Shown in pieces: positions 26,252 to 29,299 of a stretch of DNA of 35,095 bases; position 1 is the stretch's first letter, and every line of letters begins with the position of its first letter. The position numbers and the translations under genes are program-made. Below the pieces are notes generated by a model. The model was not told the origin of the DNA, did no database searches, and worked only from the letters and a program-made list of their open reading frames with translations. Source of the stretch: Dehalococcoidia bacterium (lineage in GTDB: Bacteria > Chloroflexota > Dehalococcoidia > Bin125); assembly GCA_022824765.1 (NCBI GenBank), contig JAJDZG010000053.1, positions 1 to 35,095 of the forward strand, given 5' to 3'.

Positions 26252-26281
26252 TTGACAGTGGCGCGGGACACTCGGTACCTT
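26252..26281 (+). promoter_or_regulatory. Consensus-like promoter ahead of the second LLM gene
   Basis: TTGACA (26252-26257), an 18-base gap, then TACCTT (26276-26281). Transcription from here would give a leader of about 70 bases before the GTG at 26361. This is the best -35/-10 pair I found in the window. Confidence 0.6.
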
Positions 26282-26360
26282 GCCAGCGAGACCGCCCGCA
26301 ATGGGCGATTCCGCTGTGCGCCACTCTTGCCCAGCGGTTGGGACACGAACGGAGTTTCCC

Positions 26361-27653
26361 GTGAAGTTTGAGTTCTTCCACCTGATGCCATATCGAGATC
26401 TGCCCGCAGATTTCGCTGAGACGAACAACTCGGTCTGGGTTGACGTGCCGTCGCACCTCTTCGACCCGCAGAAGGCCCACCAGATGTACAACGACGGCCT
26501 GGACGAGCTCGAGGCCGCCGCGGCCGCCGGCTATGACGGCATCTGCATCAACGAGCACCACCAGAACGCCTACGGTCTGATGCCATCACCGAACCTGATG
26601 GCCGCCAACCTTTGCCGACGGACCAAGGACGTGGCCATCGTCGTGCTGGGCAACTCGATCGCGCTCTACAACCCTCCGACTCGCGTCGCCGAAGAGTTTG
26701 CGATGCTCGACTGCATCTCGGGCGGTCGATTGGTCGCCGGCTTCCCCGTCGGTACGCCGATGGACGACTGCTTCTGTTACGGCGCCAACCCGTCGCACCT
26801 GCGCGACAAGTACTACGAGGCTGCCGACCTGATCACGCAGGCCTGGACGCGGCCGGAGATGTTCAGCTACAACGGCCGCTACAACCAGCTGCGCTACGTC
26901 AACATCTGGCCGCGCCCGATCCAGGACCCGCATCCGCCCGTCTGGATCCCCGGCGGCGGCTCGGTCGAGACGTGGGAATGGTGCGCCGAGCACAACTACG
27001 TGTACTGCTACCTCTCTTACGGCGGCTACAAGGCCGGGCAGAAGAACGTTGACGGATTCTGGCGCACGATGCAGCAGCGGGAGAAGCCGCTCAATCCGTA
27101 TCAGGCTGGATTCCTGCAGCTCGTCGCCGTGGGCGAGTCCGAGCAGGAAGTGGCCGACAAGTTCGGCCCGCACGCCGAGTACTTCTACAACAAGATGCTG
27201 CACATCGACCCGCGCTACGCGGACCCGCCCGGCTACCGCACGGTGCGGACGATCGAGCAGGGCTTCACGCGCAGTCAGGGCCTCAAGCCCGTCTTCGGCG
27301 ACTCGAAGAAGTTCGAGGGCGAGAAGACCGCCGAGAAGATGGTCGAGTCCAAGGCCAACTCGGAGATCACCTGGGCGGATCTGATCCGCGAAGGCAACAT
27401 CGTCGCTGGCACGCCGAGCCAGGTCACCGAGCAGCTCGAGGAAGTGATCAAGACGCTGCACGTCGGTCACTTGATGATTCTCAACCAGTTCGGCTCGATT
27501 CCCAAGGAACTGGCGATCCCGAACATCGAGATGACGGCCCAGCAGGTGCTGCCCAACCTCAAGCACATCTGGGACGACGAAGGCTGGGAAGACCACTGGT
27601 GGCCGCAGGGCCTCGAGGCTGGTCAGGCCGAGCCGCGCGCGCTGGCGTTCTAG
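26361..27653 (+). CDS. LLM class flavin-dependent oxidoreductase (large subtype)
   Basis: 430 aa, larger than the other two LLM proteins here. The bacterial luciferase-like start KFEFFHLMPYRDLPADFAET, then GYDGICINEHHQNAYGLMPS with the active-site His pair, VLGNSIALYNPPTRVAEEFA, and GRLVAGFPVGTPMDDCFCYG; a PPVWIPGGGSVETWEW motif follows. The GTG at 26361 has GGAG six bases ahead. Consensus TTGACA promoter upstream. A hairpin with a short T-run follows the stop (27681). Likely a two-component FMN monooxygenase partnering a flavin reductase; one is encoded 6 kb away but no direct link is shown. Substrate unknown. Confidence 0.92.
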   Translation: MKFEFFHLMPYRDLPADFAETNNSVWVDVPSHLFDPQKAHQMYNDGLDELEAAAAAGYDGICINEHHQNAYGLMPSPNLMAANLCRRTKDVAIVVLGNSIALYNPPTRVAEEFAMLDCISGGRLVAGFPVGTPMDDCFCYGANPSHLRDKYYEAADLITQAWTRPEMFSYNGRYNQLRYVNIWPRPIQDPHPPVWIPGGGSVETWEWCAEHNYVYCYLSYGGYKAGQKNVDGFWRTMQQREKPLNPYQAGFLQLVAVGESEQEVADKFGPHAEYFYNKMLHIDPRYADPPGYRTVRTIEQGFTRSQGLKPVFGDSKKFEGEKTAEKMVESKANSEITWADLIREGNIVAGTPSQVTEQLEEVIKTLHVGHLMILNQFGSIPKELAIPNIEMTAQQVLPNLKHIWDDEGWEDHWWPQGLEAGQAEPRALAF

Positions 27654-27680
27654 CAGCGTCGCTTGGGACTCACGAGATGT

Positions 27681-27710
27681 GGGGCGGAGCTCCGGCTTCG
27701 CCCCGCTTTC
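27681..27710 (+). terminator. Rho-independent-like terminator after the LLM gene
   Basis: GGGGCGGAG and CTTCGCCCC form a 9-bp stem (one G-T pair) around CTCCGG, followed by GCTTTC. It ends two bases before the -10 candidate of the next gene, separating the two transcripts. Confidence 0.6.
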
Positions 27711-27711
27711 G

Positions 27712-27717
27712 TATGCT
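27712..27717 (+). promoter_or_regulatory. Candidate leaderless -10 element, TATGCT
   Basis: TATGCT ends six bases before the ATG at 27724. No ribosome site is present, which fits a leaderless start for the DsbA-like gene. Confidence 0.45.
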
Positions 27718-27723
27718 CTGCAC

Positions 27724-28869
27724 ATGCACCGATCGCTCAACACTCTGCTCGCCGTCGGCCTCATGGCGATCGTCGCCGCCCTGGCGATGCTTGTTGTCGG
27801 CGGTGCGCAGGACTCAGCCAACGATGAAGAAGTCCGCGTCCGCGCGCAGCGCCTTGCTGACGGAAGCGTTGAGTTCACGCTGCTCACCGACGACGGTGTG
27901 CTCGCGCCCAGGCGACGCCTGTTCCCGACCGGCCATTCGCCGACCGGCTGGCTCGTTTCCTCGCCGCTGACGCTGGCTAACGGCGTTGACGTCCAGATCG
28001 TTGCCCGACGCGTGCCGAGCGGCTCTTTGGAGTTTGCTGTGCGTGTTGTCGGACAGCAGGAGCGGCTGCTGCCCCGACCGCGTTTCTTGCCGACCAGCGC
28101 AGCGGTTGGGCGCTGGTTGGTGTCCGGTCCGGTCACGGTGTCAGCGCCCCAGCCTGAGTCAATGCCCGAAGCCGAGCAAGCAGAGCAGCCCGACCAAGCT
28201 GACCAAAGTGACCAAAGTGACCAAAGTGACCAATCGAGCGACAGTGACGACGGCGCGACGGCGCCTCCCACTGGTGCTGACGAATCCCACGATGGCGACG
28301 ATGATGGTTCCGACGCCGACGAGAGCAGCGTCGAACGGATTAGCGGCGGGCATCGCGACGGGCTGATCGTCAACCGCAACGTGATCGGCGATCCTGATGC
28401 GCCGGTCCTCATCGCTGAGTACGGTGATCCCTATTGACCAAACTGTCGCAGCTGGGTGGCTCGGTCCGAGCCGCTCGTGATTGAACAGCTGGTCAGAACC
28501 GGTCAGGCTCGGTTCGAGTTCCGACACTACCCGGCGCATTCGGGCTCAGGCTTCGCGGCCGAAGCGATGGAGTGCGCCGCCGACCAGAGCGGCAACGCCT
28601 TCTGGCAGTTCCACGACGAGTACATGACCAGCTCAGCACTGCGGGGATCACGCAGTCGAGCGTACGAGTTCGCCGCGGAGATCGGTCTCGACGCCGATCA
28701 GTTCAGGCACTGCCTGGATGACGGCACGCATCGGGATCGCATCAACGAGGACTTCAGCGCGGCTCTGAGAGCAAGAGTGAGGTTCACGCCGACCATATTC
28801 GTGAATGAGATGAACGCGGGGACATCGCTTGTCTCGATCACGCGCGCGGTCGAGGACGCGACTCCGTAG
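27724..28869 (+). CDS. Membrane-anchored DsbA-like thiol oxidoreductase, candidate selenoprotein (in-frame TGA at 28435)
   Basis: 381 codons if the TGA at 28435-28437 is read as selenocysteine (residue 238). An N-terminal membrane segment (about 5-27) suggests export. Residues 37-84 and 90-139 are two similar repeats of unknown fold, followed by a Gln/Ser/Asp-rich linker with five DQ(A/S) triplets. A thioredoxin-fold domain begins near residue 222: GDPDAPVLIAEYGDPY-U-PNCRSW, where family members have C-x-x-C. The frame stays open after the TGA, with FEFRHYPAHSGSGFAAEAME and the cis-Pro loop RFTPTIFVNE (P356). The second Cys is C241. A hairpin follows the TGA (see 28453). Without the TGA read as an amino acid the protein loses its active site, so a sequencing error or a dead gene are the alternatives. 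Confidence 0.75.
28192..28236 (+). repeat. Five 9-bp tandem units encoding an Asp-Gln-Ser linker
   Basis: Units begin GACCAA: GACCAAGCT once, GACCAAAGT three times, GACCAATCG once. They encode DQA, then DQS four times, in the linker between membrane anchor repeats and thioredoxin domain. Such arrays change length easily by slippage. Confidence 0.85.
28453..28477 (+). promoter_or_regulatory. Candidate bacterial SECIS hairpin after the in-frame TGA
   Basis: On the mRNA, bases 28453-28463 pair with 28467-28477 for an 11-bp stem (three G-U pairs) capped by GUC at 28464-28466. The inner six pairs (GGCUCG/CGAGCC) are all Watson-Crick. The loop starts 26 bases after the UGA; bacterial SECIS elements have an apical loop with G in the first two positions roughly 16-37 bases after the UGA. 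No bulged U, as in E. coli fdhF, is seen. The pairing was found by eye. Confidence 0.6.
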
Positions 28870-28876
28870 CGACCGC

Positions 28877-28882
28877 TAGGCT
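28877..28882 (+). promoter_or_regulatory. Candidate leaderless -10 element, TAGGCT
   Basis: TAGGCT ends six bases before the ATG at 28889 of the first VOC gene; no ribosome site is seen between them. Confidence 0.45.
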
Positions 28883-28888
28883 GAGCCG

Positions 28889-29299
28889 ATGAAAGCGAAG
28901 ATTTCGATCATCACGCTTGGCGTGTCCAACTTCTCAGAGTCGGTGGCGTTCTATCGCGACGGCCTCGGGCTGCCGGCGCCGAACTACTCGGAGGGCGACG
29001 GCATCTGCTTCCTCGAACTTGAGGGGACGTGGCTCTCGCTCTATCCACGAGAGCGATTCTCCGACGAGGCCGATGTGACTTTCGCCGAGCCGTCGGACGG
29101 GACGCCGACGATCACGCTCGCGCACAACCTGCCGTCGCGTGAAGCGGTGGATGCCGCGATGCAGGAGGCCGTTGCGGCCGGCGCGACGCTCGTTAAGCAG
29201 CCTGAAGAGGTGTTCTGGGGCGGCTATAGCGGTTACTTCGCCGATCCGGACGGCTACCTCTGGGAGCTTGCCTACAATCCGTTCACGGACTTGACCTGA
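28889..29299 (+). CDS. VOC (glyoxalase/bleomycin resistance-like) protein, first of two
   Basis: 136 aa, one pair of beta-alpha-beta-beta-beta units. ITLGVSNFSESVAFYRDGLG opens the first and GYSGYFADPDGYLWELAYNP closes the second; the latter holds the usual metal-binding Glu. VOC proteins bind metals and act as glyoxalases, dioxygenases, epimerases or drug-binding proteins. With TAGGCT six bases before the ATG it may be made from a leaderless transcript. The next VOC gene begins two bases after its stop, so the two are translated together and could form a mixed dimer. Substrate unknown. Confidence 0.88.
   Translation: MKAKISIITLGVSNFSESVAFYRDGLGLPAPNYSEGDGICFLELEGTWLSLYPRERFSDEADVTFAEPSDGTPTITLAHNLPSREAVDAAMQEAVAAGATLVKQPEEVFWGGYSGYFADPDGYLWELAYNPFTDLT

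Follow-up and report, generated by a model that had tools for sequence, protein, structure and literature searches.

A probable exported UxxC selenoprotein with a two-repeat module in a Dehalococcoidia genus

The findings in this study suggested that a gene of a Dehalococcoidia bacterium very probably encodes a genuine bacterial selenoprotein that is also an exported oxidoreductase, whichever direction its redox reaction takes. The apparent stop codon at 28435-28437 is almost certainly a selenocysteine (Sec) codon. Positions refer to the window, the whole stretch of DNA that was analyzed (35,095 nucleotides, contig JAJDZG010000053.1 of assembly GCA_022824765.1), and the features of the gene are as follows.

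27724-28869, + strand: selenoprotein gene; probably exported UxxC thioredoxin-fold protein of 381 residues, Sec at 238, stop TAG
27724-27810, + strand: hydrophobic N-terminus (signal peptide or signal anchor), from the sequence, with a predicted helix at 4-23 and AxA-Q-like ends in several orthologues
27826-28149, + strand: two-repeat beta module (2 x ~50 aa) without a Pfam match, recurring in other clade proteins
28150-28332, + strand: low-complexity Gln/Ser/Asp-rich linker, from the sequence; low model confidence, probably disordered
28339-28866, + strand: DsbA/DsbG-like thioredoxin domain (PF13462, PF01323; nearest PDB fold BdbD)
28435-28437, + strand: in-frame TGA, almost certainly Sec, at the attacking position of UxxC (sequence, orthologues, tree)
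28444-28446, + strand: resolving Cys codon of UPNC, invariant in the ten-row orthologue alignment
28453-28477, + strand: bSECIS hairpin within the coding part of the mRNA, with GUC as its apical loop (28464-28466) (folding, codon null, family comparison)
28786-28791, + strand: codons of the Thr-cisPro loop (TP in TPTIFVN); in the ten-row alignment the Pro never varies, whereas the Thr does

The gene, its orthologues and the selenocysteine machinery

The frame opened with ATG at 27724, contained a single in-frame TGA at 28435-28437 (residue 238) and closed with TAG at 28867-28869. Its translation read EYGDPY, the TGA, PNCRSW and, farther on, FTPTIFVNE; the frame around the TGA, the UPNC site and the cis-Pro loop TPTIFVNE, all described in an earlier note on this DNA, were found where that note had placed them. 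The 144 open codons that it counted after the TGA are reached only if the stop is included, there being 143 sense codons. With the TGA read as Sec, Pfam models Thioredoxin_4 (PF13462; E 8.5e-26, residues 219-366, spanning the TGA) and DSBA (PF01323; E 5.2e-8, residues 279-362) both matched above their gathering scores, and the predicted fold was thioredoxin-like. The N-terminal anchor that had been proposed was upheld as far as hydrophobicity; by eye, an AxA-Q-like motif closes the hydrophobic N-terminus in several orthologues, and a cleaved signal peptide may therefore be as likely as a membrane anchor.

Homologues were sought in 100 genomes, the window's own included, and 46 of these matched some part of the protein. 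Orthologues with the full layout (hydrophobic N-terminus, two repeats, linker and UxxC domain) were present in 13 of the 15 genus genomes, own included; among the matches listed, there was none in genus genomes G003 and G014. The TGA stood at the same place in all 13 orthologues, each from a different genome, and no thioredoxin-domain match lacking the TGA occurred in the genus among the matches listed. Because the same TGA stands in 13 assemblies, a base error at this position is very unlikely. That the UGA aligns with the redox Cys of homologues, as had been anticipated, was borne out by the alignment and by a tree of 101 domains.

After the TGA, dN/dS ranged from 0.08 to 0.47 (45 pairs, ten orthologues); for the window against L011, dN was 0.10 and dS 0.54, a ratio of 0.19. 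Differences in length led to the omission of L060 and of pairings between the 144-codon orthologues and either the window or L011. The sequence 3' of the TGA is under purifying selection, and the reading frame is not decaying. Instead of the retained TGA with decayed downstream sequence that the earlier note had considered, the orthologues conserve the downstream part.

The surroundings of the gene were conserved as well. A glyoxalase-family gene lay 3' of the selenoprotein gene in all 12 named related loci (79-89% identical), SDR genes lay 3' in 11 of the 12, and an LLM-type flavin oxidoreductase gene lay 5' in 10, the other two loci beginning at a contig edge. The named relatives are Dehalococcoidia/Chloroflexota MAGs. 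In a comparison of loci L065-L076 with window positions 26280-29299, the selenoprotein was only 37-70% identical and its syntenic LLM-type neighbor 92-98%, indicating that the selenoprotein evolves far faster.

All four genes for which the earlier note had proposed a search, selA, selB, selC and selD, were found in the genome to which the window belongs (171 contigs, 2.35 Mb in total, completeness 91.6%), including selB and selC, whose absence it would have counted against the selenoprotein. SelA matched at E 2.2e-125, SelB was represented by a 638-aa ORF with the winged-helix family above cut-off, and SelD scored 352 bits (cut-off 125) and had an in-frame TGA of its own in NCGG-U-GSK. A tRNA-Sec with anticodon UCA scored 66.4 bits with the Rfam model, and ARAGORN concurred. 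The Rfam tRNA-Sec model also matched all 14 control genomes weakly (above cut-off in 5), as did the SelD model (above cut-off in 2), and no cloverleaf was obtained in the lone minimum-energy fold of the tRNA-Sec. The assignment of tRNA-Sec therefore rests on the ARAGORN call and the 66.4-bit score. Among the 21 genomes for which a thioredoxin-domain homologue with the TGA was listed, 20 had strong SelA (E <= 1e-60), the sole miss being G021, a genome 54% complete; of the other 79, those without a listed TGA homologue, 40 had it.

The bSECIS hairpin, paralogue arrays and two-repeat module

The window carried a hairpin, GGCTCG-GTC-CGAGCC, at 28458-28472. Its stem can be lengthened to 11 bp (28453-28477), and its loop begins at nt 30 when the U of UGA is counted as 1. 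Random recoding of the peptide with matched codons gave a weaker hairpin as a rule, the real one lying at z = -3.04 (0.7% of 300 randomizations). For the family comparison, 66 TGA genes were used, made up of the orthologues, 47 array genes, three genes of G017 and one each of G016, G046 and G042; the counts leave out listed TGA matches in G016:C6, G021, G026 and G039. The base at nt 30 was G in all 66. This G was the third base of a CAG codon in 58 genes, and CAG made up 83% of the Gln codons further downstream; because CAG is the usual Gln codon, conservation of the loop G alone is modest evidence.

In the stem, six of the seven inner positions were paired in 61-65 of the 66 genes, and the seventh was paired in 45. 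Mean stem pairing was 0.913, versus 0.21-0.44 when the register was slid by 1-3. Both sides changed together at several pairs (for example, A-U/G-C at 29:33 and U-A/C-G/G-C at 27:35), counted as sequences and not as events, and one stem pair was A.C in 15 genes. Per gene, all seven pairs formed in 39, six in 22, five in 2, three in 2 and one in 1, so that 61 made at least six of the seven; of the 5 that formed fewer, three (L059 at 6904, L030 and L036) formed three or fewer. Best-hairpin energy averaged -9.9 kcal/mol at the UGA versus -2.7 at 198 control sites within these genes. Against the codon-matched null, Sec genes gave a mean z of -2.23, with 48 of 62 distinct stretches under 5% and 14 not, while 12 Cys active sites of relatives (12 rows from 11 loci, L035 at 169 with z -0.49 being dropped as a spurious frame) gave z of -1.23 to +1.16, not above the null, with the caveat for the Cys rows that the codon table was taken from the Sec genes. 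Thus the GUC-loop hairpin at the right distance from the TGA, which the earlier note had pointed out, was confirmed by folding, by the codon null and by the family comparison.

A tandem run of three to four UxxC genes was present in 14 of the 15 genus genomes (G003 being the exception), amounting to 47 genes, all with the TGA; the array of the window's own genome lies at L045:7944-10559, with counterparts at L046-L058. Most array paralogues had a Gln/acidic-rich linker. A lipobox was found in 43 of the 47 by a crude regular expression, which probably flags L021 in error and passes over four array proteins that look lipoprotein-like by eye. A DUF885 gene adjoined the selenoprotein arrays in all three loci scanned, and genes resembling the terminase large subunit lay near arrays in two genomes (L050:1-756 and L045:13072-14490).

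The tree (81 Sec and 20 Cys domains) was midpoint-rooted, and the program warned of long branches. The family-level rows that were fetched formed one branch with support 100/99, containing Sec only (65 rows for 64 genes, L026 and L064 being the same gene), and the orthologues of the window gene formed a 13-row group, also with support 100/99. Over the whole tree, the Sec/Cys label changed seven times, at least five of these changes being forced by starred branches; therefore, Sec and Cys interchange elsewhere in the phylum.

The N-terminal two-repeat region noticed earlier proved to be real, as in 11 of 11 module copies the alignment of half 1 with half 2 outscored every one of 300 shuffles. 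No Pfam match to the module was found at E 10. It modeled as all-beta (pLDDT 93.6), and a Foldseek search of the PDB returned nothing at E <= 0.001, its best hit having E 0.17. An HMM placed the module in 12 fetched proteins; apart from window positions 27826-28149, its carriers are loci L077-L088, and in L087 it is C-terminal. A Pfam scan of ten module proteins returned a trypsin-like protease (one), a solute-binding protein (one), AhpC/TSA redox domains (two), RCC1 repeats (two), leucine-rich repeats (one) and no match (three). In the two AhpC/TSA-type fusions (L080:837-2333 and L083:1496-2473), the domain has a CxxC, and the clade therefore has both Cys and Sec redox proteins with the module. 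In a draw of 301 genomes of the phylum, which seems to contain only two of this genus, the module matched 11 times in the own genome, 17 in G010 and 2 in G137, with no match at E 1e-6 in the other 298; N-terminal matches in the 100-genome search also came from genus members G017, G018 and G081. The module is a find in itself, a confidently modeled beta domain on unrelated proteins of the clade.

Alternative readings and redox direction

Decoding of the UGA as Cys would yield an ordinary CxxC enzyme, and a reading as Cys or Trp, or leakage through a suppressor, would have to be set against the full Sec machinery in the own genome, a hairpin positioned in the TGA genes but not above the codon null at the 12 Cys active sites, and the use of TGA as their own stop by 37 of the 66 family genes; we regard such decoding as highly improbable. 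As those 37 genes terminate at it, TGA still works as a stop, and a general code change was ruled out. The earlier note had reached the same view from many window genes ending in TGA, a weak argument, since one of the six Pfam-supported neighbors does so. The source is a draft MAG, as would suit a sequencing error or a pseudogene that arose by nonsense mutation from a DsbA gene of the Cys type; the conserved synteny argues against both, the identical TGA in 13 assemblies together with the purifying selection downstream rules them out, and we give them practically no weight.

With selenocysteine as the preferred reading, the machinery and the element are seen in the sequence, and from these the ribosome would be expected to read the UGA at 28435-28437 as Sec, SelB with Sec-tRNA-Sec binding the hairpin at nt 19-43. 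The product would be exported, judging from its N-terminus, and its DsbA/DsbG-like domain would carry out thiol-disulfide exchange outside the cytoplasm, Sec238 attacking and Cys241 resolving. The module may place the protein on the cell surface or bring it to a shared partner, a role suggested by its being appended to unrelated proteins.

The direction of exchange is less settled. A search of the own genome gave a DsbD_TM match with motifs TPCVGP and SPCVLP, in a protein that we read as CcdA-like, and neither the DsbB nor the VKOR family was matched in any of the 15 genus genomes, which are drafts. These genomes nonetheless contain several thiol-redox proteins with export-like N-termini. Because a CcdA-like protein was found and DsbB and VKOR were not, electrons would most likely pass outward through CcdA, keeping the selenoprotein reduced, so that it would act as a disulfide or selenosulfide reductase, or a peroxidase feeder, rather than as a disulfide-forming DsbA. 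The low redox potential of Sec suits a reductive role. We give this CcdA-fed role about an even chance, as the direction rests on the absence of two families from draft MAGs and another oxidant may replace them. The same selenoprotein could instead be an oxidase or isomerase with a DsbA/DsbG role in extracytoplasmic disulfide formation. Among solved structures, BdbD and DsbA proteins come closest to its fold, and Thr precedes the cis-Pro in the window protein, a trait of DsbC/DsbG; however, most aligned orthologues have Gly there, DsbB and VKOR are unmatched throughout the genus, and a CcdA-like protein is at hand, and we consider an oxidizing or isomerizing role unlikely. Returning to the reductive role, we would tentatively extend it to the clade, which may have built a selenium-only extracytoplasmic reducing system in which a module-positioned surface selenothioredoxin and three to four tandem selenolipoproteins are driven by CcdA, with no DsbB/VKOR arm.

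Significance and comparison with known families

Selenoprotein genes with an internal UGA are easily missed, because standard gene-calling programs tend to break them up or cut them short. In the UxxC family, the SelA/SelB machinery has a concrete user that is conserved and present in several copies, probably acting outside the cytoplasm. Enrichment of SelA/SelB has been reported in sponge symbionts, the selenoproteins being unnamed in the accessible part of that paper (PMC5649159), and the family is a candidate user behind it. One relative (L071, MPNM01000004) belongs to one of the bins of that study, bin125 of the sponge Aplysina aerophoba, classed there as Chloroflexia. A selenium-only reducing system would, if real, help to explain the retention of SelA/SelB by sponge symbionts. 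Beyond this SelA/SelB remark, no description of the selenoprotein family, the module or the sponge-symbiont members was found in the accessible portions of the open-licence PMC literature.

UxxC selenoproteins of the DsbA-like and DsbG-like types have been described from the Sargasso Sea, in the GOS study and in a 2026 review (PMC1088965, PMC2398784 and PMC13188914, as far as their accessible parts show). The earlier note had called the two-repeat region novel for Sec-containing DsbA relatives; the fused module is new, and the UxxC DsbA/DsbG-like class was already catalogued. Its PF01323 form appears as "DsbA 1" in PMC2398784 and as "DsbA-like protein form 1" in PMC13188914, and it shares with the window protein the DSBA domain above cut-off and Sec at the first UxxC position; neither a fused module nor a tandem paralogue array is described in the accessible text of these papers.

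The NCBIfam model NF041057 ("Rcas_1661 family thioredoxin-like (seleno)lipoprotein"), whose accession the accessible part of PMC13188914 gives for the UxxC "DsbG-like protein", scored best in NCBIfam for each of the 11 proteins tested (114-152 bits). Its cut-off of 190 bits was reached by none of the 11 (the window protein at 116.1, ten relatives at 114-152); it matched at E <= 1e-15 in 133 of the 301 phylum-draw genomes and above cut-off in 21. A UxxC or CxxC site is common to that family and ours, and phylum members occur with and without the TGA, whereas no Cys form was found among the fetched family-level genes. Unlike the lipoprotein signal of NF041057, no lipobox was detected in the window protein (by the crude expression), and the window protein adds the two-repeat module.

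BdbD, the DsbA-like protein of Bacillus subtilis (PDB 3eu3), was the closest solved fold of the thioredoxin domain (TM-score 0.76 by target length). BdbD has Cys, not Sec, in its active site and works with a DsbB homologue, a family unmatched in the genus genomes. What is new in comparison with these known systems is not Sec at this site; it is the fusion to a two-repeat beta module, carried also by unrelated clade proteins, a candidate user for the SelA/SelB enrichment of sponge symbionts, and the Sec-only expansion of paralogues.
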